Source of the DNA: Mariprofundus ferrooxydans PV-1
GTDB lineage: Bacteria > Pseudomonadota > Zetaproteobacteria > Mariprofundales > Mariprofundaceae
NCBI RefSeq assembly: GCF_000153765.1
Contig: NZ_DS022295.1
Coordinates: 1,271,849 to 1,335,848, forward strand
Length of the DNA: 64,000 bases
Reading direction: 5' to 3'
Both the position numbers and the translations under genes were made by a program. A model generated the notes under the pieces. That model was not told the origin of the DNA, ran no database searches, and saw nothing but the letters and a program-made list of their open reading frames with translations. Below, in pieces: positions 1 through 49,350 of the stretch (positions are counted from its first letter, which is position 1; each line of letters opens with the position of its first letter).

Positions 1-499
1 GCAGCTGGTCACCCGTCTCGGCAGCCCGCCCGGCTTCAATTTCAAATTTCACCTGTGATTTCTGCAACCGGTCAATAACAGCCTGTACATCAGCATCCTC
101 GACGCTGACAGTCGTCTCATCAAACGCGAGGCCGGATAGCGGCTTGATTTCAACATCAGGCCAGGTCGTTACTTTCATGGTAAATTCAAAACCACTCGAC
201 GGCTGTGCGGCCGGCACGTCCAGCAGAGGCTGCACAGCAGGGATCAGACCGGACTTTTCAATCGCTGTTACATAATGGGTCTGGATCAGCTCGGAGACCG
301 TATCTTCATGCAGCTTGGGCCCGAACTGCTTCTTCAGCACGTGCGACGGGGTCTTACCCGGCCGGAAACCCGGCAACTTGGCCTGCATGCTCAGCTTGTT
401 CACCAACATGGCATAAATGCGGTCATATTCACCCTGTTCCACAGTAACATGCACCTGATATTCATTGGGGGCCAGTGTTTTCACTTCTGTCTGAATCAT
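1..499 (-). CDS. tig: Trigger factor, N-terminal part (gene continues past the left edge)
   Basis: Ribosome-associated peptidyl-prolyl isomerase and chaperone that meets nascent chains at the tunnel exit. The visible 166 residues contain the ribosome-docking signature GFRPGKTPSHVLKKQFG around residues 43-59, which is diagnostic of the trigger factor tail domain, and run on towards the PPIase domain. The ATG at 499 is preceded by a GGAG ribosome site 7 nt away. The 3' part lies beyond position 1, so clpP/clpX, its usual neighbours, cannot be checked. A tRNA-Leu gene lies just upstream on the same strand. Confidence 0.95.
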   Translation of the reverse strand, partial: MIQTEVKTLAPNEYQVHVTVEQGEYDRIYAMLVNKLSMQAKLPGFRPGKTPSHVLKKQFGPKLHEDTVSELIQTHYVTAIEKSGLIPAVQPLLDVPAAQPSSGFEFTMKVTTWPDVEIKPLSGLAFDETTVSVEDADVQAVIDRLQKSQVKFEIEAGRAAETGDQL

Positions 500-5860: not shown

Positions 5861-7645
5861 TCAACTCTTACCCTGTATCGAGCCATGTTCCACCCCGTCA
5901 CCAAAACAGGCATTCCATACATGGGAAGGCAGAAGCTGGGAAAAGTGTTGCCATCCATCCTTGTCGGAAGATGCACTGATTTGATCAATCAATGCATCCC
6001 GCTCCTCTGTCCGGCCCGTTTCATGGTATACCTGCGCTCGCAATGCTGCGGCTCTGAGCGAGTCGGGCGACCGGTTGCTAACGGCTTCCAGCAAGCGTCC
6101 GGCCTCTTCATAATCACATCGTCCGATGCGCTCTTCCACCTTGTTCAGCAACTGTATCAGCTCATCATCTACTGCGGACTTTTCTGCCGGCAAAGTAGCA
6201 ACATCCTGCTTCTCTGCGGCCACGGGCGGCGCTACCGGTGGCTCTTCTGCAGCCGTAGGCGCTATCGGTTGCCCTGCTGCTGCAGACGCTACCGGTTGCT
6301 CCTTTGCAACTGCTGCAGGTGTCACTGGTTGCTTTTCTGAGACTGCAGGCGCCACCGGTTGCTCTGCTGGTACGGCTCGACCAAACAAGCGTCGTCGCAT
6401 GATCATCGCGCCAAGCAGCAGGCCTGCCACTCCGGCAAGCAATACATAAAAGGCCACCTGCCAGCTCATTGTTGGCTCGACTGGAACCACCGCCTGCGGC
6501 CGATTCCGTATAGCAGTGACATCGTGCTTAAGCTTTTGCATATCCTGACGGATCAATTCAACAGAACTATTGAGCCCGGCTACCGACTTGCCCAGCTCTG
6601 ACATCTGTAACTTGCCAGCCATCAGCTCACTGTGAATAGATGTCAACTGATCGTTGGCAGCATCCGCAGGTGCCGAAGCAGCCCCCTGTTTGTCAGCGCC
6701 CCTGTTCAGGGAAATTTTACCGCTATATTGCAATGCCTCAGGCGGTTGTTTCGGTTCTGCAGCCGGTACCTCTCCGGGAGCAGGAGCAGACAGAGGCTGT
6801 TTCTCGCCTTCGACCAACTTCACAGGTTGACGAAGCAGTGTCGAGAACCGTTGCATCGCAGCGTCGTTGCCATAACTGCTCACCACACTGGCGGCCGGCA
6901 CATCCAGCCATGCGCCCTCTTTCAGTTGGTTGATATTGCCATCTGTAAATGCCTGCCTGTTTTTATCATACAGGGCGAGCATCACCTGCCGGTTATTGAA
7001 TCGCTTGTCCTTGCGCAAGCGCTGGGCAATACGGCCCAGACTCTCTCCGGAGCGGATCGGACCATAGCGCAACCTTCTGGACCAGAAGTCATCAGCAACC
7101 ACAGATGTCGGCAACAGCGCTGCCGCCTCGGCTTGCGGGTGTAGCGGAAGCACGGCCGGCTGTTGCTCTCTTCGCGTCATCGCAGCAGCTTCCACAGAGT
7201 CGAGCAACAAGCGGTACTGTTTGAAATAGGTTCCACGTCCGGCTCTGGTAGCCTTGAGTACAATCGACAGAATCGGAGTATGGATGGCGGTGGCAGAATA
7301 GAGGTGAATCACCGCCCCGTTGGCCTGCTGTTCGGGTTTGGTGACCCTGATCCGCTCCAGATCAGGCTGCCAGTTCAGACCCATTTGCCGGTATTCATTT
7401 TCACTGGCCAACTCGACGCGCACCTGACCCACCTTCTCTGACGCACCAAGCAGCAGTGGCACCTCTGCATTAAGGGGTTCATTGAGATGGCTGTTAAGCA
7501 TTAATTTGCCGAAGCCGAGTGCTGCCGCACTCCCCGGCGACAGACAGAAAGCAAATGCCAGCATCAGAAATCCGGCACAGGCCCGCCGGATCACACCACC
7601 ATGCATCGGGCACACCTTTGTAACCTCAGCCATTGCCGTCAACAT
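5861..7645 (-). CDS. FimV-like pilus/polar hub protein
   Basis: 594 residues organised like FimV: a signal peptide (RRACAGFLMLAFAFCLSPGSAAA), then the FimV N-domain beginning LGFGKLMLNSHLNEPLNAEV, then a LysM-like peptidoglycan-binding segment (YGPIRSGESLGRIAQRLR). A single membrane helix lies near residue 400 (AFYVLLAGVAGLLLGAMIM), followed by a Pro/Ala-rich linker of imperfect QPVAPA repeats and a cytoplasmic tail (EERIGRCDYEEAGRLL) of TPR type. FimV proteins anchor at the pole, help type IV pilus assembly and feed into cAMP or c-di-GMP signalling. Its stop lies 53 nt before the PilB-like ATPase, so the two are probably co-transcribed. The start is ATG 7645 with GGAAGGG upstream. Confidence 0.85.
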   Translation of the reverse strand: MLTAMAEVTKVCPMHGGVIRRACAGFLMLAFAFCLSPGSAAALGFGKLMLNSHLNEPLNAEVPLLLGASEKVGQVRVELASENEYRQMGLNWQPDLERIRVTKPEQQANGAVIHLYSATAIHTPILSIVLKATRAGRGTYFKQYRLLLDSVEAAAMTRREQQPAVLPLHPQAEAAALLPTSVVADDFWSRRLRYGPIRSGESLGRIAQRLRKDKRFNNRQVMLALYDKNRQAFTDGNINQLKEGAWLDVPAASVVSSYGNDAAMQRFSTLLRQPVKLVEGEKQPLSAPAPGEVPAAEPKQPPEALQYSGKISLNRGADKQGAASAPADAANDQLTSIHSELMAGKLQMSELGKSVAGLNSSVELIRQDMQKLKHDVTAIRNRPQAVVPVEPTMSWQVAFYVLLAGVAGLLLGAMIMRRRLFGRAVPAEQPVAPAVSEKQPVTPAAVAKEQPVASAAAGQPIAPTAAEEPPVAPPVAAEKQDVATLPAEKSAVDDELIQLLNKVEERIGRCDYEEAGRLLEAVSNRSPDSLRAAALRAQVYHETGRTEERDALIDQISASSDKDGWQHFSQLLPSHVWNACFGDGVEHGSIQGKS

Positions 7646-41764: not shown

Positions 41765-42346
41765 CTAGATTTTGACCAGGCCGGAGAAGCCCATAAAGGC
41801 CAGCGACATCATGCCGGCTGTAATCAGGGTCAACGGAGATCCCTTGAACAGAGCGGGTACGGGGGAAACATCCATGCGTTCACGCAGGCCGGCAAACAGC
41901 ACCAGTACCAGTGCAAAACCGACCGCTGCACCAAAGCCGTAGAGCGCGGAGCTGACAAATGTCTGTTCCTGCTGCACATTCAACAGCGCTACGCCTAACA
42001 CCGCGCAGTTGGTGGTGATCAACGGCAGAAAAATACCCAGCGCCTGATACAAAACCGGACTGGTCTTGTGGATCATCATTTCGATAAACTGGACAAGCGC
42101 TGCAATAATCAGAATGAAGAAGATGGTCTGCAAATACTCCAGACCCAGCGGCACCAGCACAAACTCCTGCACCAGCCACGAGCAGACAGAGGCCAGCGTC
42201 ATGACAAACATCACGGCAAACGACATGCCAACCGCCGTTTCCACCTTGCCGGATGTACCGAGAAACGGACAAATGCCGAGAAACTTGGTCAACACGAAGT
42301 TGTTCACCAGAACGGCAGAGAGTAAAATGAGTGCTACTTCAGTCAT
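41765..42346 (-). CDS. rnfA: RNF complex subunit RnfA
   Basis: First gene of the rnfABCDGE operon, 193 residues with six helices. The opening [20 protein letters not shown] and [17 protein letters not shown] are family-typical, as is [15 protein letters not shown] couples ferredoxin and NAD to ion pumping and can run in reverse to make reduced ferredoxin, which suits autotrophs or nitrogen fixers. No ribosome site precedes the ATG at 42346, and a TATACT box lies 8 nt upstream, so the mRNA may be leaderless. Confidence 0.95.
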
Positions 42347-42354
42347 GGCGCGGA

Positions 42355-42360
42355 AGTATA
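42355..42360 (-). promoter_or_regulatory. Possible -10 box of the rnf operon
   Basis: TATACT on the minus strand, preceded by GGGCC, 8 nt upstream of the rnfA ATG. No good -35 is present at 16-18 nt (best TGTACG), so an activator may be needed. The distance implies a transcript starting at or next to the start codon. Confidence 0.35.
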
Positions 42361-42426
42361 GGCCCAGTCAGCTATCGCGTACACCTGTCTAAACCCACAC
42401 TTTTTCCCATACAGGGCAACAGAGGC

Positions 42427-42735
42427 ATGACAGACGCAGTCAGCCGTCGCAATATTGGCCTCATGAATGACTCCACCCAGACATCGCCGCTGACATTCCC
42501 CTGCCGCTTCCCGGTCAAGGTCATGGGCAGCAACAGCGATCACTTCAGAGAGGATATTGTGGCCATCGCGCGCGAGTATTTTACACCGCTGGATGAAGCC
42601 GATATCACTGTAACCGCGAGCCGGACGGCAAAATATCTGTCGGTCAGCGTGATCGTCACTGCCGAGAGCCGGGAGCAACTGGATAACCTCTATCGCGCCA
42701 TCAATGCCCACCCCGATGTTCGCATGGTGCTCTGA
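42427..42735 (+). CDS. DUF493/YbeD-like protein
   Basis: 102 residues. The core FPCRFPVKVMGSNSDHFRED, then SRTAKYLSVSVIVTAESREQ and LYRAINAHPDVRMVL, matches the YbeD (DUF493) family, an ACT-like fold of unknown role often near lipB. The family core starts near residue 20; the start may be ATG 42427 (with AGAGG upstream) or ATG 42463. No lipA/lipB genes are nearby. Divergent from rnfA and followed by the MITE-like repeat. Confidence 0.85.
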   Translation: MTDAVSRRNIGLMNDSTQTSPLTFPCRFPVKVMGSNSDHFREDIVAIAREYFTPLDEADITVTASRTAKYLSVSVIVTAESREQLDNLYRAINAHPDVRMVL

Positions 42736-42749
42736 TAGAGAGTCAAAAA

Positions 42750-42912
42750 CTTTTCACCACAGAGGACACGAAGGACACAGAGGAAAGACAAAGCATTGTA
42801 GATAAAGAATAACTGCTGTCATCGCTGCCTTCAGGGATTCACTCTGCCCGTGTGAAGACTGTGACTATCTTCGTTTCCTTGCTTTTACCTTTGTGTCCTC
42901 TGTGGTGAAAAG
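42750..42912. repeat. MITE-like element with 25-bp terminal inverted repeats
   Basis: Left arm 42750-42774 (CTTTTCACCACAGAGGACAC plus GAAGG) and right arm 42888-42912 are inverted copies with one mismatch in 25. The total length is 163 nt and the interior shows no coding frame. The ACCACAGAGGACACAGAGG-type sequence is one I recognise as a dispersed intergenic repeat in various bacteria. It fills the gap between convergent ybeD and aroK. On the plus strand the right arm is followed by CTTTTTTATTTTCTTTTTTT, so it could also terminate ybeD transcription. Confidence 0.75.
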
Positions 42913-42917
42913 CTTTT

Positions 42918-43451
42918 TTATTTTCTTTTTTTCCATTTATCGAGAAATTTCAGGATAGCCGCCAGCGCATCCGGCTTGTTCATATCGCCTCGTGGCAACG
43001 TGAAGTCGGCACACTCCTCGTATAACGGATAACGGAGCTCAGCCAGCTGCTGTAGACGACTCAAGGTGTCGCCCTCCGCGATCAATGGCCTGTTGCTGTC
43101 ACCGTCAATACGCTCTGCCAGAAACTCTGGTGAAGCCTTCAGCCAGATAACCGGCGTATGCTCTTTCAACAACGCCCGGTTTTCCTCACGCATGACGACA
43201 CCACCCCCACTGGCAATCACCGCCGGCCTGCCCAGAACGGCACGTAGTGCGGCAGTTTCCATATCGCGAAAACCATCCTCACCGCGTTCGGCAAAGATAT
43301 CCGGAATGCTCATGCCCGCCTGTGCAACGATATAATCATCCAGATCTATCAAATCCAACTTCAGCTTCTTCGCCAGTCGCCTGCCGATACTGCTTTTCCC
43401 CGAGCCCATCAGGCCGATCAAAACCGGAGATACTCCCTTGATTCTCTTCAC
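42918..43451 (-). CDS. aroK: Shikimate kinase
   Basis: 177 residues. P-loop GLMGSGKSS, shikimate-binding Asp in DLDDYI and Arg in DGFRDMETAAL, the glycine-rich ASGGGVV loop, and the lid Arg in NRPLI are all present. It catalyses step five of the chorismate pathway. The last codons (WKKRK) are encoded by the T-rich tract next to the inverted repeat. No aroB gene follows, unlike in many proteobacteria. Confidence 0.96.
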   Translation of the reverse strand: MKRIKGVSPVLIGLMGSGKSSIGRRLAKKLKLDLIDLDDYIVAQAGMSIPDIFAERGEDGFRDMETAALRAVLGRPAVIASGGGVVMREENRALLKEHTPVIWLKASPEFLAERIDGDSNRPLIAEGDTLSRLQQLAELRYPLYEECADFTLPRGDMNKPDALAAILKFLDKWKKRK

Positions 43452-43658
43452 CTCGCCCCCTTACGCTGACCGCTATTTTCTACAGTAACGGAAACTGACT
43501 ATTCCATTCGCGCTGCGCAAGGAAGATACACAACCATCAGAGTCATCATCCTTGCCCCGCCTCAGACCCGTTCTCTGGCGAAAAACCTGCTCAGGGATTA
43601 CCATCACACCACTGCAGAGCCGTAGGAAAGCTCTACAACATTTCACCGGAGAGTCACC

Positions 43659-44630
43659 ATGCATCATACAGGCCTGATATACGCATTCGTTCTCGACGGG
43701 AGTGGCGGCGCAAGGCAGCTGGACTGGCAAGGCGTCAGATCGTGGCAGCATGAACAGGGACCGATATGGATTCACCTGGACTACAGCTCGGATGAGGCGC
43801 GCAACTGGATACTGACCGAAAGCCATATCAATGAGATTGCTGGTGAAGCCCTGCTCAATGAAGAGACACGCCCCAGAGCTACCGCCGTCGGTGATGCCCT
43901 GCTGCTATCGCTGCGCGGCGTAAATTTCAATCCCGGCTCGGACCCTGAAGATATGGTATCAATCAGAATGTGGCTGACCAGTGATCAGGTAGTGACCACA
44001 CGCAAACGGAAATTACAGTCTGCGTCCGACATGGCCGCATCCCTTCAAAACGGTAACGGCCCAAAAACAATCAGTGAGTTTCTCGTCGATTTTTCCAGCC
44101 GCATTACATCCAGAATGGAAGCTCTCGTGGAGGAGCTGGAAGATCGTTCCGCCCAACTGGAAGAGGCGGTGATTGATAATGGTAACGCTATCCTGCGCAG
44201 CGAGCTTTCAGCCATTCGGCGTGAGACGATTATGTTGCGTCGCTATCTGGCACCCCAGCGGGAGGCGATGATAAAGCTTGCCTCTGCAACCGCTGCCTGG
44301 CTAACCGATAACGACCGCATGCGGCTGCGCGAAGTAACCGATCAACTGGTACGTTATATTGAAGATCTGGATTCGATCAGGGATCGGGCTTCGGTCACAC
44401 ATGAGGAGCTGGTTAACAGGCAGTCTGAACAGATGAACGCCAGAATGTATATATTGTCTCTGGTAGCCGCGCTGTTTTTACCCCTTGGTTTTTTTACCGG
44501 CCTGCTGGGCATCAACGTCGGCGGCATTCCCGGAGCCAATAACCCGTGGGCTTTTGCCATATTTATTGTCATCCTGCTGGTCATTGTCATCTTTCAGGTC
44601 ATCTTCTTCAAAAAGAAACAATGGATGTAA
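43659..44630 (+). CDS. CorA-family transporter, ZntB type
   Basis: 323 residues: a large N-terminal cytoplasmic domain rich in helices with GPIWIHLDY and DALLLSLRGVN, a long coiled-coil stalk (about 140-250), and two C-terminal helices. The pore motif reads GINVGGIPG rather than GMN, which is the ZntB/CorA-II variant associated with zinc. Ends KKKQWM. Start ATG 43659 follows CCGGAGAG. It is the last ordinary chromosomal gene before the AT-rich cassette region. Confidence 0.88.
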   Translation: MHHTGLIYAFVLDGSGGARQLDWQGVRSWQHEQGPIWIHLDYSSDEARNWILTESHINEIAGEALLNEETRPRATAVGDALLLSLRGVNFNPGSDPEDMVSIRMWLTSDQVVTTRKRKLQSASDMAASLQNGNGPKTISEFLVDFSSRITSRMEALVEELEDRSAQLEEAVIDNGNAILRSELSAIRRETIMLRRYLAPQREAMIKLASATAAWLTDNDRMRLREVTDQLVRYIEDLDSIRDRASVTHEELVNRQSEQMNARMYILSLVAALFLPLGFFTGLLGINVGGIPGANNPWAFAIFIVILLVIVIFQVIFFKKKQWM

Positions 44631-44926
44631 CCCCCCTCACCGTTAGTAGGCTGCCAGTATCTAAGGGTCCTATTTCACCGGGAATGAGAGTTTACGAGTC
44701 GCTTCTTTGGCCAGAACCTGTCATTCAGTTTGAGATATACATAACAAGGGTATATCAATATCCAGTGTTATATATACGTATACATAACCACGATATTTCA
44801 GGATAAATGGATAGCACCTACCCGAATTTGCAATCCGGACCGTCCTAACCTAGGCTGATGAACAAGGAATCAGGGGGGAAGATATTATGATCACCTGGCA
44901 AAAAGATACGTGCGTATATTAATATG
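44631..44926. other. AT-rich intergenic region between zntB and the integron cassette
   Basis: About 296 nt without a gene. It carries three copies of a TATACATAAC-type half-site (next entry), a stretch GGGGGGAAGATATTATG near 44873-44888 followed by a frame of only a dozen codons, and AT-rich sequence (TGCGTATATTAATATG) up to the cassette boundary at 44926/44927. No recognisable attI structure or preceding attC is visible. Confidence 0.5.
44736..44788. promoter_or_regulatory. Near-palindrome with an extra half-site (operator or recombination site)
   Basis: GTTATATATAC (44767-44777) abuts GTATACATAAC (44778-44788), forming a 22-bp palindrome with one mismatched pair. A further direct copy, TATACATAAC, lies at 44736-44745. 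The arrangement could be a regulator site for the cassette genes or a Xer-type core; it does not match a standard dif sequence closely. Confidence 0.4.
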
Positions 44927-44940
44927 TTAGCTGTGAAAAG

Positions 44941-44973
44941 ATGGAGAAACAATTAGAAGACTATGAGCAATAG
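44941..44973 (+). CDS. Ten-codon upstream frame overlapping the TIR gene start
   Basis: ATG at 44941 opens the frame MEKQLEDYEQ and stops at TAG 44971-44973, 11 nt inside the TIR gene that starts at 44963. It begins 14 nt into the cassette. Short leader frames that deliver ribosomes to the first cassette gene are known in integrons (the attI-borne ORF-11). The TIR start itself has only a weak AGAAG site, so translational coupling is plausible. It could also be chance. Confidence 0.35.
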   Translation: MEKQLEDYEQ

Positions 44974-45796
44974 AAAAAGAGTATTTCTCTCATACTGCCA
45001 TGCTGACATTGAAGTAGCCTTAGACATTGAAAGAAGGCTTCGAGATGACAGCATTGAAGTTCTAAGTAGCTTTGATCTTGACCCAGGTTCAAATATTCAA
45101 ACCAACCTGAAGTACTTTGTCGAATCTAGTGACATTGTTCTATTGCTGCTATCTAAAGACTATTTCAACTCTGTTTACAGCGGGAAAGAGCTGTACGAAT
45201 TTCTCAATGAAAGTAATAAAAGGAAGGTCTCCGTCATTCCAGTCGCCATTGAAAGATGCAATATTCCTTGGCAGTTGAAAAATCTTAATACAATTAATTT
45301 ATACAACAATATCGATTCTGGAATCGAATCATTAAAGCGGCAAATCAATGTTTTAACACATGTGAGTTTTGATAATTTCTCCGCGGAGAATTTTGAGGAA
45401 TTTACGTACTTGTTGCTGAAAGAGTATGGATTTAAAAATATAAGGCGCGAATTTCATAGCTCTGACTACGGGATTGACTTTGTTGCTGAAGCCTTCACAA
45501 AAAACCCATTTGGCTTCACGCAAAAGGAAACATGGATTGTTGAAGTTAAGTTTTATAGGAACGAACGTTTTAGCATAAATACAATAAAGCAGCTATTTGA
45601 ATATAAGCGCAGTGTATTGCCTCATGATAGCAAGATGCTACTTATTACTAATAGTATTTTAACGTCCGTTGCAGAAGAGTATCTTTCTGACCTTCAGAAA
45701 CACGAGAACACCCAAATAGAGGTTATTGATGGCATAAAGCTAAAAAAACTCATCGCAAAACGGAAAAAGCTAATTAATGAGTTTTTGCCATCATGA
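44963..45796 (+). CDS. TIR domain-Mrr-like restriction nuclease fusion
   Basis: 277 residues. Residues 5-130 form a TIR domain: RVFLSYCHADIEVALDIERR, SSFDLDPGSNI, SSDIVLLLLSKDYFNSVYSG and a Glu in GKELYEF (Glu76) at the position used by NAD-cleaving TIRs. Residues 140-260 form a PD-(D/E)XK nuclease of the Mrr type: FEEFTYLLLKEYGFKNI, Asp172 in YGIDFVAE and the Glu-x-Lys pair in WIVEVKFYRN (194-196), then MLLITNSILTS. Signal-sensing or NADase TIR plus nuclease suggests an anti-phage effector. It overlaps the next gene as ATGA. Codon use is AT-rich compared with neighbours. Confidence 0.85.
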   Translation: MSNRKRVFLSYCHADIEVALDIERRLRDDSIEVLSSFDLDPGSNIQTNLKYFVESSDIVLLLLSKDYFNSVYSGKELYEFLNESNKRKVSVIPVAIERCNIPWQLKNLNTINLYNNIDSGIESLKRQINVLTHVSFDNFSAENFEEFTYLLLKEYGFKNIRREFHSSDYGIDFVAEAFTKNPFGFTQKETWIVEVKFYRNERFSINTIKQLFEYKRSVLPHDSKMLLITNSILTSVAEEYLSDLQKHENTQIEVIDGIKLKKLIAKRKKLINEFLPS

Positions 45797-46347
45797 GTCA
45801 GGTTAACGACTTTATAATGGCATTGGATAACTGCCCATTAGGGAATGCTGGTTGGGTTCAGTTCGAAGATTTATGTACGGATATTCTTTCATTTTTGTTC
45901 GTCCCGCCCTTGAGTCCACCCAATAGGCAAGCAAGAACATATTCGGGTGTTAATAGAAGAGATGCGGTCTATCCGAACAGGAATATCACCCAAAATAATA
46001 ATCCAAATTCCAGTAATTGGCATCATCTGTTTCTCGAACTAAATGCTCGAATGATATTGGTGGAGTATAAGAACTATGACAATACTGAGATCGGTCATGA
46101 AGAAGTAAACCAAACTAGGAATTACTTGACGAACCCAATGGGAAGGCTTGCACTAATGGTTTGCAGCAAGCAACCTAATGAATCAGCTCACCGTCAAAGA
46201 AATACTGTTTTTACTCAGGATGAAAAAGTTATCGTTTTCTTAGACAAGGAGCAATTGAAGGAAATGCTGGCCATGAAGGAAAGGGGGGAAGACCCCTCGG
46301 ATTTGATAATTGACTTGGTAGAAAGGTTTTACATTCAACATGAGTAA
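45793..46347 (+). CDS. Restriction-endonuclease-like partner protein
   Basis: 184 residues. The N-terminal helix WVQFEDLCTDIL (Glu25), then RRDAVYPN (Asp57) and ILVEYKNYD (Glu91, Lys93) reproduce the order E-D-ExK of restriction-fold nucleases, followed by EVNQTRNYL and ALMVCSK as the next strand and helix. I cannot name a family. It is translationally coupled to the TIR-nuclease gene, so the two proteins probably act together. The last 40 residues are charged and helical. An alternative is a nuclease-fold protein that binds rather than cuts DNA. Confidence 0.7.
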   Translation: MSQVNDFIMALDNCPLGNAGWVQFEDLCTDILSFLFVPPLSPPNRQARTYSGVNRRDAVYPNRNITQNNNPNSSNWHHLFLELNARMILVEYKNYDNTEIGHEEVNQTRNYLTNPMGRLALMVCSKQPNESAHRQRNTVFTQDEKVIVFLDKEQLKEMLAMKERGEDPSDLIIDLVERFYIQHE

Positions 46348-46352
46348 TAGTC

Positions 46353-46423
46353 AGCTAACAAGTAGCTCCACCGGACAAAATACTCGCTGCGCTCGCATTT
46401 TTCCGGTGAGCTAAGCGTTGGGC
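46353..46423 (+). other. attC: attC recombination site of the cassette
   Basis: 71 nt. R'' AGCTAAC (46353-46359), an L'' arm TAGCTCCACCGGA, a variable loop, the L' arm TCCGGTGAGCTA and R' GTTGGGC (46417-46423, matching GTTRRRY). The arms pair with one extra base on the L'' side, the unpaired base that gives attC its strand polarity. The stem continues with AAAAT/ATTTT. Only the AAC/GTT triplets pair between R'' and the R' now present, as expected when the last six bases belong to whatever follows. Confidence 0.82.
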
Positions 46424-46441
46424 GTAAAAAAGAGATGAGTC

Positions 46442-46543
46442 ATGGATGTATCTAAAGAAACAAAAAATAAAAGGGGTCAGGACTTGTTTTGCGCATTTCC
46501 ATCGGCAGATTTAATAATTCGGGCAACTGGGGTCGGATCTTGA
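46442..46543 (+). pseudogene. Remnant of a following cassette gene
   Basis: Directly after the attC, the sequence AAAAAAGAGATGAGTCATGG gives a ribosome site and an ATG at 46442 about 25 nt from the cassette junction, the usual layout of a cassette gene. The frame MDVSKETKNKRGQDLF continues for only 33 residues, and its coding character is lost where the GGGGTCAGG repeat begins. I read it as the 5' scar of a second cassette interrupted by a repeat element. Confidence 0.35.
46473..46542. repeat. Pair of GGGGTCxGGxCTTG-type direct repeats
   Basis: GGGGTCAGGACTTG (46473-46486) and GGGGTCGGATCTTG (46529-46542) differ at three positions and lie in the same orientation, 56 nt apart. I recall similar GGGGTCAGG(T/A)CTTG strings near REP-type elements and REP-associated transposases, but no transposase is present here. 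Confidence 0.4.
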
Positions 46544-46655
46544 ATATTGAATCATCATAGCCCTCCCCTCTTTGGTAAGGTTAAATGTAAACCTTCCAAT
46601 AGGTGAATGTCTATGTTTGGCCAAAAGCAGACCCATTCAAGCAATAGATTTATTT

Positions 46656-46677
46656 GGCAGGCCATGCATGGCCTGCC
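46656..46677 (-). terminator. 22-bp palindromic hairpin downstream of the DUF748 gene
   Basis: GGCAGGCCATGCATGGCCTGCC is a perfect palindrome located 28 nt past the DUF748 stop codon on its strand. It is followed on the minus strand by AAATAAATC, AT-rich but not a real T-run, so termination efficiency is uncertain. The rest of 46544-46655 holds nothing I recognise. Confidence 0.5.
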
Positions 46678-46704
46678 CGGAGGCATCGGATTCATCAGCT
46701 CTAC

Positions 46705-49350
46705 CTAGTCGAGCAACAACTCAACTCTGGGTTTAGCCTTCTTTTTTTCTGCATCAATCTGCGGGCGGCAGCCGAATAGCTGATCTGCTTTCACACCATG
46801 TGAGGCAATAGCCTCCTGCACATGATTCGAGCGCGCTGTCGCCAGCTCCAGAAGCTGTTGATCACTCATGGCAGATGCAGGCGCCTGAGCCTGATCCGCC
46901 GCTACCGCCACGCCTTCGCCGGAGGTGGCAACGCCGCAAATCTGCAAACGCAACCCCTTCTCCTTCATCAACCCGGCAATCTTGCCGGCATATTCGGCCA
47001 TCGGGGCAGTGAGGGCACTGCTGCGTGGCTCAAATATAATCGGCGTCAATCTGGGCTTGGCCGCATCACTAATCATACCGCTGGCCAGATTGGCCGCGAG
47101 GACAATGCTGCCGTAAGGCTGCAGAACCAGTGCAGCGTAAGTCATCGCGCCGGATGAGAGTGAGGAGAGCAGTGCCTTGTTGATAATATCATGGATATTG
47201 ATATTCGGATCAGTCAGCAGCCCCTTGACCGGCACATCCAGCGCAATATCCCCGCGCCCGTCACGCAGCATATCCAGCGACATACCAAGCGGCATCGTCA
47301 AACCCTGCGTCGCCGTACCCTGCTGCGCGGAGTCCCCCAGCGTCAGACCGCGTAACATCAACTTGTTGGCCGAATCGATATGCCCGTCGGCAATGCTCAC
47401 CGTACTGTCGAGATCCAGTTGGCCTGTACGGATAGATTTGCCAAAATCCGGTTCAATATATCCGGAGAGCTCCGGCATTTTAAAGCGTTTCAGGCTGACT
47501 TTGAGCTGTGTCGCAGGTGAAGGTCCCGGCCGCACCTCTCCTGTCACAACCAACTGCCCCGCCTCGCCCAGCTTCAACCGCATATCGAGTGACCCCTTAC
47601 GTTTACCGGAGAGATCAAGCGGCGCCAGACGCATCTTTTCAACCACCATACGGGTGTCAAATGCCGGCAACACACTGGCATCGCGCATCTCCGCCCGACT
47701 ACCTTTTGCCACAATCAGCTCATCAACAAGCAGCTGGCTGGCAGACTGATGCGGGTCGCTTGCAGCAACCTTATGACTCGCACCCTTCGGTTCTTTTTCC
47801 GGAGCGTTACCGGCGGACAGCTTATCAAGGACTGCAATCTTTCCATCCTTCTGCCGCTCGATATGCAGATCCAGGCCGGCAAACTGCAATCGCTTCACAT
47901 GATAGCTGTCAGCCTTCATTGCCGCCTGCGTCACCTTCACACTGCCGATACGTCCCATGGCATGTCCGCCCACCGCCGGTAACGTCCAGCCGTTCACCAG
48001 CAACTGGTCGAAACCGCCGCTCTCTACCCCCGTCATGTGCAACTTGTTCAACTTAATCTCATCCACAGCGACAAGCTTCACGATATTATTGCGCGCACTC
48101 CGTCGGGAATCTGTAGCGGAGACAGACGGACGCTCCAGTTGCAATTTACTCAAAGCAAGCGATGCCAGCTGCACCTGCTGTTTGGCATCCACAGCGACAG
48201 ATTTGAGCAGTAACTGCTCCAGTTTCATCTGATCCCCGTTACCCGGCAGGTTATTCGCCCGCACACCGCCCGCCTCCAGCTGCGCCATCGCTATCGCGCC
48301 GGTCGGGTCGACTGTAATCTGCTGCGCCTTTACCCTGTCCACAGAAACATTCGCTGAGCTTTTATTCATATCGGGAGCCGTCACTGAATCCAGTGACAGG
48401 GATGCCACCGACACCTTACCGTTTGCCACTACATGAACGTTCTGCAACTTCACCGCTTTCGCACCCATGGCACCGTTGCCGGTCAGGGCGTCAGTGACCT
48501 TCGGCGCAACCAGATCCACCATGCCGGCCGTAACCTTGCCATCCATATGCACACCCAGATCACGTATATCAACGGACTCCAGCGACGCCAGCTGCACGCC
48601 ATCCATATCCTTGAGTGACACACGACCCAGACCAACCCGTAACGTTCCGGTCCTCAAACCGGTCAACAGATCCTGGTTGCCCGCGTCCAACCTGATATCG
48701 CCGTCGGTCTCCAGTGTCGTATATGCCAGATTGTAGCCTGCGATTATCAAATCAACCGGCCCGGTCTGGAAGCGCAGGCTCATGCCATGCCGACCTGATG
48801 CATCCGCCCCCCGCAGGTGAAGTGTCAGCAGCTGAATCGGCAGCGACAGCGACAGCGGCTTGTCTGACAAACGGCCTTCAAGGTGCAGGTTGATATCACT
48901 GAACTGCACATCGGCAGGCGCCACCTGCCAGTCAGATGACCCAGCATCCGCCTCGGGCGTCGCCTCTCCGGCTGTATCATCCAGCCGGATACTGCCAAAC
49001 TGCCATACGCCGTGTGCATCCTGCTGCACCCGCAGGTCCCCTCCGTGGAGATGCAACGAATGAATCAACACTTTCCGCTTGAGCAGCGGCAACCAGTCCA
49101 CCTTCACACTCAAGCGACGCACATGCATGCCTTTACCGGCATTCAAACCCACCAGCACAAATGAGCCGGTAAAGGGGTTGAAATCTATATCCTCAACCTG
49201 GGCCTGCACGGCGCCGTGATCCCGTAACCAGTGCTGCGCCCCCACACGGAGCACTTCCGGCAACAACGATAACAATATGACGCTCAACAGCAGCAGTGAG
49301 CATACCCATATTAACCAGCGGTAGCGCTGTGCCTTCGGCGTATCAGACAT
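46705..49350 (-). CDS. DUF748/AsmA-like envelope protein
   Basis: 881 residues: an N-terminal membrane helix (LIWVCSLLLLSVILLSLLP), then a very long periplasmic beta-rich region of the AsmA/DUF748 type (VEDIDFNPFTGSFVLVGL, LTLHLRGADASGR, LDVPVKGLLTDPNINIHDI), ending in an OmpA-like segment (IIFEPRSSALTAPMAEYAGKI, LATARSNHVQEAIASHGV). Such proteins are thought to help move lipids between membranes. The middle contains many imperfect VxxVxLxSLxLxxxxAP-type repeats. Divergent from pilU. Confidence 0.88.
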   Translation of the reverse strand: MSDTPKAQRYRWLIWVCSLLLLSVILLSLLPEVLRVGAQHWLRDHGAVQAQVEDIDFNPFTGSFVLVGLNAGKGMHVRRLSVKVDWLPLLKRKVLIHSLHLHGGDLRVQQDAHGVWQFGSIRLDDTAGEATPEADAGSSDWQVAPADVQFSDINLHLEGRLSDKPLSLSLPIQLLTLHLRGADASGRHGMSLRFQTGPVDLIIAGYNLAYTTLETDGDIRLDAGNQDLLTGLRTGTLRVGLGRVSLKDMDGVQLASLESVDIRDLGVHMDGKVTAGMVDLVAPKVTDALTGNGAMGAKAVKLQNVHVVANGKVSVASLSLDSVTAPDMNKSSANVSVDRVKAQQITVDPTGAIAMAQLEAGGVRANNLPGNGDQMKLEQLLLKSVAVDAKQQVQLASLALSKLQLERPSVSATDSRRSARNNIVKLVAVDEIKLNKLHMTGVESGGFDQLLVNGWTLPAVGGHAMGRIGSVKVTQAAMKADSYHVKRLQFAGLDLHIERQKDGKIAVLDKLSAGNAPEKEPKGASHKVAASDPHQSASQLLVDELIVAKGSRAEMRDASVLPAFDTRMVVEKMRLAPLDLSGKRKGSLDMRLKLGEAGQLVVTGEVRPGPSPATQLKVSLKRFKMPELSGYIEPDFGKSIRTGQLDLDSTVSIADGHIDSANKLMLRGLTLGDSAQQGTATQGLTMPLGMSLDMLRDGRGDIALDVPVKGLLTDPNINIHDIINKALLSSLSSGAMTYAALVLQPYGSIVLAANLASGMISDAAKPRLTPIIFEPRSSALTAPMAEYAGKIAGLMKEKGLRLQICGVATSGEGVAVAADQAQAPASAMSDQQLLELATARSNHVQEAIASHGVKADQLFGCRPQIDAEKKKAKPRVELLLD

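Follow-up and report, generated by a model that had tools for sequence, protein, structure and literature searches.

A probable integrase-less integron and recurrent orphan attI platforms in Mariprofundus ferrooxydans PV-1

Cassette arrays without an integrase

Integrase-less cassette arrays are usually seen as debris or as the outcome of off-target insertions. Where attC sites occur without an integron integrase, they go by the names SALIN and CALIN (PMC9024848, PMC9229058). The locus described here, which lies in a 64,000-nucleotide stretch of the M. ferrooxydans PV-1 genome that was analysed as a whole (the window), resembles them in having an attC site and a cassette with no intI nearby, but differs in that its array appears to be headed by a promoter-bearing attI. 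IntegronFinder 2.0 detects attI for class 1 only, and its default for a CALIN is at least two attC sites (PMC9024848); with these defaults, the element in the window would therefore be dropped.

Several described systems share one or another feature with this locus. The nearest precedent is a CALIN in the Shewanella prophage M16-3 that has an attI of its own (PMC9892861): there, as here, an integrase-less array has a copy of attI at its head, but the prophage also contains a complete integron, whereas four orphan attI sites are found here on an intI-free chromosome and the arrangement recurs across the genus. In class 1 integrons, Pc and ORF-11 are situated at attI1, and the leader aids translation of the first cassette (PMC8876359). 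The window platform seems to be built along similar lines, with a candidate promoter, a Shine-Dalgarno run and a short leader ORF overlapping attI ahead of the first cassette, but it lacks intI1, has another attI sequence and does not keep its leader frame fixed among copies. Chromosomal integrons of Xanthomonas have kept their cassettes after inactivation of intI (PMC12444791); cassettes outlast the loss of the integrase in both cases, but Xanthomonas has one canonical locus (ilvD), whereas several attI platforms are dispersed in each genome here. Finally, attG sites are known to receive cassettes (Loot et al. 2024, as cited in PMC12901181). The window cassette likewise sits at a chromosomal place away from intI, but attG, in the terms of that citation, is a non-classical target, whereas the target in the window is a conserved attI core.

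The attC site

A preliminary description, made from the sequence alone, had read a 71-nt hairpin in R''/L''/L'/R' order as an attC site, and both its exact position and its legible arms bear this out.

46353..46423, + strand: attC site, 71 nt (R'' 46353-46359, extrahelical C46368, R' 46417-46423)

The arms read AGCTAAC (R''), TAGCT-C-CACCGGA (L''), TCCGGTG-AGCTA (L') and GTTGGGC (R'); the single unpaired base on L'' and the GTTGGGC form of R', both pointed out earlier, can be read directly, the unpaired base being C46368. Two of the checks that had been proposed, folding of the bottom strand and a covariance search of the genome, gave concordant answers. With DNA parameters, the bottom strand folds at -14.8 kcal/mol, better than its shuffles (-9.69 +/- 2.17; z -2.35), and the site ranks first in its own genome at 44.8 bits with a covariance model of 13 attC sites, the window attC among them. 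In a home-made attC scanner, which in random sequence returns about three hits per Mb at a score of at least 34, the site reaches 38.2, and the runner-up place in the window, its own reverse strand excluded, scores 29.8. Independently of any model, blastn aligns the site with 626 plasmid records (80-90% identity); in many of these, the matching sequence is an attC of a class 1 integron, for example the one after estX (beside intI1) or catB2. The boxes end in AAC and start with GTT, and their pairing is perfect with the cassette circle's own R' (TTAGCT); the circular attC reconstituted in this way yields, with RNA parameters, -36.3 kcal/mol for the bottom strand and -29.1 kcal/mol for the top strand.

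The hairpin is strong and stands at the 3' end of a gene pair, and either property would suit an ordinary transcription terminator. Such an identity is nonetheless scarcely conceivable given the 80-90% identity to integron attC sites, the conserved AAC/GTT boxes, the extrahelical base and the exact match between R'' and the left junction; a terminator scan makes no call at the hairpin. The preliminary description had also raised the prospect of a terminator conserved in relatives, and the relatives of the hairpin turn out to be attC sites of other cassettes. On these sequence grounds, we take the hairpin to be a true attC. The absence of intI and of any other attC from the window had also been claimed earlier; a profile search finds no intI there, and scanner and covariance searches return no convincing second attC candidate in the window.

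The cassette and its cargo

The six bases missing from a perfect R' (TTAGCT) sit 1.43 kb upstream, at position 44927, right after a G. Because they complement R'' and stand behind a G, the cassette can be delimited as 44927-46417.

44927..46417, + strand: integrated gene cassette, 1,491 bp (TTAGCT ... attC ... GCG), whose left junction, TTAGCT, complements R'' AGCTAA exactly
44963..45796, + strand: cassette gene 1, TIR domain and Mrr-type restriction endonuclease, 277 aa (Pfam and PADLOC profiles)
45793..46347, + strand: cassette gene 2, nuclease-like, 184 aa (PADLOC candidate profile PDC-M36A, E 8.3e-17)

The product of gene 1 matches the Pfam families TIR_2 (E 3.8e-21) and Mrr_cat (E 7.8e-13) as well as the PADLOC profiles for the ThsB TIR and PDC-M58A/PDC-S02, and its plasmid relatives are distant only. 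Gene 2, which overlaps gene 1 by 4 bp, matches Mrr_cat weakly and under the cut-off (E 0.007). Judging from these profiles, the cargo comprises two putative DNA-defence genes and may serve an anti-phage role.

The attI platform

What lies to the left of the cassette is best described in terms of its parts (a slash marks the crossover point).

44706..44926, + strand: orphan attI platform (candidate promoter, leader ORF and attI core), with copies elsewhere in the genome and genus
44828..44856, + strand: putative cassette promoter Pc, sigma70-like, TTGCAA-17 bp-TAGGCT (positional conservation)
44873..44922, + strand: Shine-Dalgarno run GGGGGG and leader ORF, overlapping the attI core (conservation of the Shine-Dalgarno run and start codon)
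44887-44922, + strand: leader ORF MITWQKDTCVY*, ATG..TAA
44901..44929, + strand: attI core AAAAGATACGTGCGTATATTAATATG/TTA, crossover 44926/44927 (core conservation in the family, intI adjacency in relatives)

The core was delimited by sequence comparison, its conserved form being AAAAGATAC...TATTAATAWG/TT, and the left cassette junction AATATG/TTAGCT (44926/44927) coincides with its 3' end. Among 257 Gb of genomes, the core AGATAY..YATTAATAWG/TT has ten exact matches, nine of which fall in the Mariprofundaceae/Zetaproteobacteria; when up to three mismatches are allowed, a search of 74 family genomes locates 21 sites, spread over 13 of the genomes, and the reversed control yields one. Further platform copies in congeners stop at the identical G/TT point. 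In five other arrays of the genus that served as a control, no core was present within 4 kb upstream or to the end of the examined sequence (best 11-14 mismatches of 29), and an attC is therefore not automatically accompanied by the core.

In relatives, the core adjoins an integrase gene. At locus L103 of a family member (G034:C41), 137 bp separate it from the start of an intact 457-aa IntI, and the attC behind it has a matching R''; the distance to an intI start is 155-156 bp both in L069 (G004) and in L105 (Mariprofundus erugo), where intI is truncated to ~67 aa, and the core also stands beside intI in L078, which is grouped with L069. The exact complementarity of the left junction to R'' holds in L105, L103 and L069 as well. 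Two peculiarities of these loci may be recorded. The first ~118 residues of the 457-aa IntI match no Pfam family (L103 4386-5759 in G034:C41, L069 and L105); this N-terminal part precedes SAM-like and integrase domains and is possibly an unusual N-terminal extension. In L069 (1-1955, G004:C96), attI and one cassette are enclosed between a minus-strand 5' fragment of intI at the contig end and a plus-strand intI, an inverted orientation of the two pieces that may stem from a MAG artefact or from an inversion.

The preliminary description had likened the left junction to a secondary site rather than attI, and on this point it has to be revised: the junction is a conserved attI core that stands beside intI in relatives and occurs at three more places in the same genome. 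The corresponding alternative would be a SALIN at an attG-type site, that is, a cassette inserted at an arbitrary genomic G/TT with no attI involved. It accords with the absence of intI nearby and with the entry of cassettes into attG sites (reported by Loot et al. 2024, in the citation given by PMC12901181), but we hold it to be very improbable, because the junction is a conserved 29-bp core inside a repeated 220-bp block with promoter-like and leader elements and because the same core adjoins intI in relatives. We read 44706-44926 as the attI of a Mariprofundaceae integron, on the strength of its conservation and neighbourhood.

The elements upstream of the core are conserved by position. 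A sigma70-like TTG[AC]NN-16..18-TANNNT occurs in 14 of the 21 attI sites at the corresponding place between the left limit and the core; shuffled sequences average 0.3, and two control intervals contain none. A generic promoter scan makes no call at the candidate 44828..44856. At -68 to -28, 17 of the 21 have a start codon preceded by a Shine-Dalgarno-like run (shuffled mean 4.9, maximum 11 in 2000). The leader reading frame differs among platform copies, the second copy in the same genome having no ATG. We infer from these regularities that the Pc candidate and the leader may function as promoter and leader.

Orphan attI sites in an integrase-free genome

The genome belongs to the Mariprofundus group of the Zetaproteobacteria and comprises 2.99 Mb in four contigs, with 99.75% completeness. 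No intI was found in the window or elsewhere in it: the cut-off for TIGR02249 is 265 bits and the best match scores 74, and all 14 control genomes contain matches to this family below the cut-off. The genome has four attI cores, at C3:1316749 (the window), C3:992205, C3:225056 and C4:882230. Copy 2 (G000:C3:992011-992229) is 91% identical to the window platform over 221 bp, has the same G/TT end and is followed directly by a cassette with its own attC; a third copy, at 71% identity, shares the same end point. A genome-wide covariance search detected five attC sites at E <= 0.05, all of them on the same strand as, and at most 2.4 kb downstream of, the four attI cores; it scored 150 of the 1206 candidates from a first look and may have passed over weak attC sites. 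In each of the four arrays, the bases that follow the attI G complement R'' of the first attC exactly. The adjacent intI of a complete integron is absent, no intI remnant being found upstream of the attI copies. The earlier designation of the locus as a SALIN or the visible end of a CALIN thus stands in part: the assembly has no integrase, and the locus therefore qualifies as a SALIN in the usual sense, but that designation leaves out the attI.

One array ties the orphan platforms to a complete integron. In the congener G012, which has an intI-bearing integron, the first cassette of that integron matches the third cassette behind C4:882230 (array 4) at 90.5% identity over 944 bp, the homology running from boundary to boundary (G/TTATACC to R'); orphan arrays therefore draw on the cassette pool of an intI-bearing integron. 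The cassette common to array 4 and G012 (L106 5832-5925; L067) holds a 274-aa ORF.

Origin of the platforms

Other members of the genus have orphan attI sites too, some of which occupy non-orthologous loci in sister species, and the history of these sites could have taken more than one course. Each could be the relic, left in place, of a complete integron that lost its intI by deletion or decay, on the pattern of Xanthomonas, while attI never moved; we give this tentative account a little under an even chance. In M. erugo, the intI beside an attI with three attC sites is reduced to roughly its N-terminal 67 aa, and the attI sites of G009:C27 and G019:C13 both stand behind the same RND pump gene, which argues that some sites are old and vertically inherited. 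Several observations are harder to accommodate in this way. The copies in PV-1 have no upstream intI remnant; copies 1 and 2 share 91% identity over 221 bp, yet occupy different loci; and copy 3, which follows an amidohydrolase gene, is 89% identical over 204 bp to the platform of G009:C28, which occupies a non-orthologous locus behind zwf-gnd-pgl genes (named from translations). At the amidohydrolase locus of G009, where the gene itself is 86% identical, attI is absent.

Alternatively, a platform of ~155-220 bp (promoter, leader and attI core) may have dispersed alone, without intI, and Mariprofundus chromosomes would then have several independent sites at which cassettes dock and are expressed; the integron would be a multi-site one, served in trans by an integrase that may be elsewhere or absent. 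This is conceivable, if rather unlikely in our estimate; a mixture of in-place intI loss and platform dispersal is another option. In M. erugo, a 155-bp platform copy is 97% identical to its intI-side counterpart and abuts an IS30-like fragment. The second orphan attI of M. erugo (L104 8146-10792, C11:188119) lies between the C terminus of an IS30-like transposase and cassettes, after which comes an apparent REP-associated (Y1-type) transposase gene. The pentamer GGCCA is the common left limit of platform homology at four loci (window 44706-44710, copies 2 and 3 of PV-1, and G013:C59) and does not recur often in the 345 kb examined; inspection by eye for transposon ends recognised neither a terminal inverted repeat nor a target duplication. 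At G013:C59 (L065/L027, ~6150-6213), only the promoter half of the platform is present, an apparent PIN-domain gene replacing the attI core.

Empty sites were sought for the window locus and for copies 2 and 3. Genus relatives provided no clean empty site for the window locus. The CorA-type gene to the left of the platform (43659-44630) has no relative at E <= 1e-40 in 22 other genomes of the genus, and its neighbourhood may for that reason itself be acquired; on the DUF748 side, relatives are rearranged, G009 being partly homologous from about position 46604. For copy 2, no empty site is readable, the right-hand gene being unique to PV-1; for copy 3, the sister genome has no attI at that locus, but its right flank differs and the exact target is unreadable. 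Elsewhere, an attI of G019 (L112, G019:C63:33802) lies in the same RnfA-DUF493-aroK-pilT neighbourhood as that of the window (42331-49350), on the opposite side of aroK, through either common ancestry or coincidence.

A model for the locus and its implications

We consider it highly probable that the window contains an integrase-less integron, in which an attI would serve as the docking and expression site of a two-gene cassette inserted by IntI through attI x attC recombination. The attC of the cassette circle, with R'' and R' perfectly paired (AGCTAAC/GTTAGCT), would recombine at the G/TT of the attI core, an event that would leave the core to the left of the cassette and the target's old TTGGGC to its right. 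The platform promoter would then drive the TIR-Mrr and nuclease-like genes. The inserting enzyme was presumably a Mariprofundaceae IntI of the 457-aa type. Since the genome now lacks an integrase, the cassette would be fixed today unless IntI comes from outside.

Literature searches on integrons of Mariprofundus and of Zetaproteobacteria turned up no described attI. What is new here is the presence of several orphan attI platforms on an intI-free chromosome and their recurrence in the genus, the CALIN of the Shewanella prophage being the one precedent. Every attC match in the genome stands behind a conserved, apparently promoter-bearing attI despite the lack of an integrase, and the SALIN/CALIN label thus hides a class of orphan attI platforms, which would hold cassettes at an expressed first position. 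The analysis also yields a candidate attI and a likely cognate IntI type for the Zetaproteobacteria. If the platforms move or act in trans, integron function would not be bound to a single intI-linked locus.
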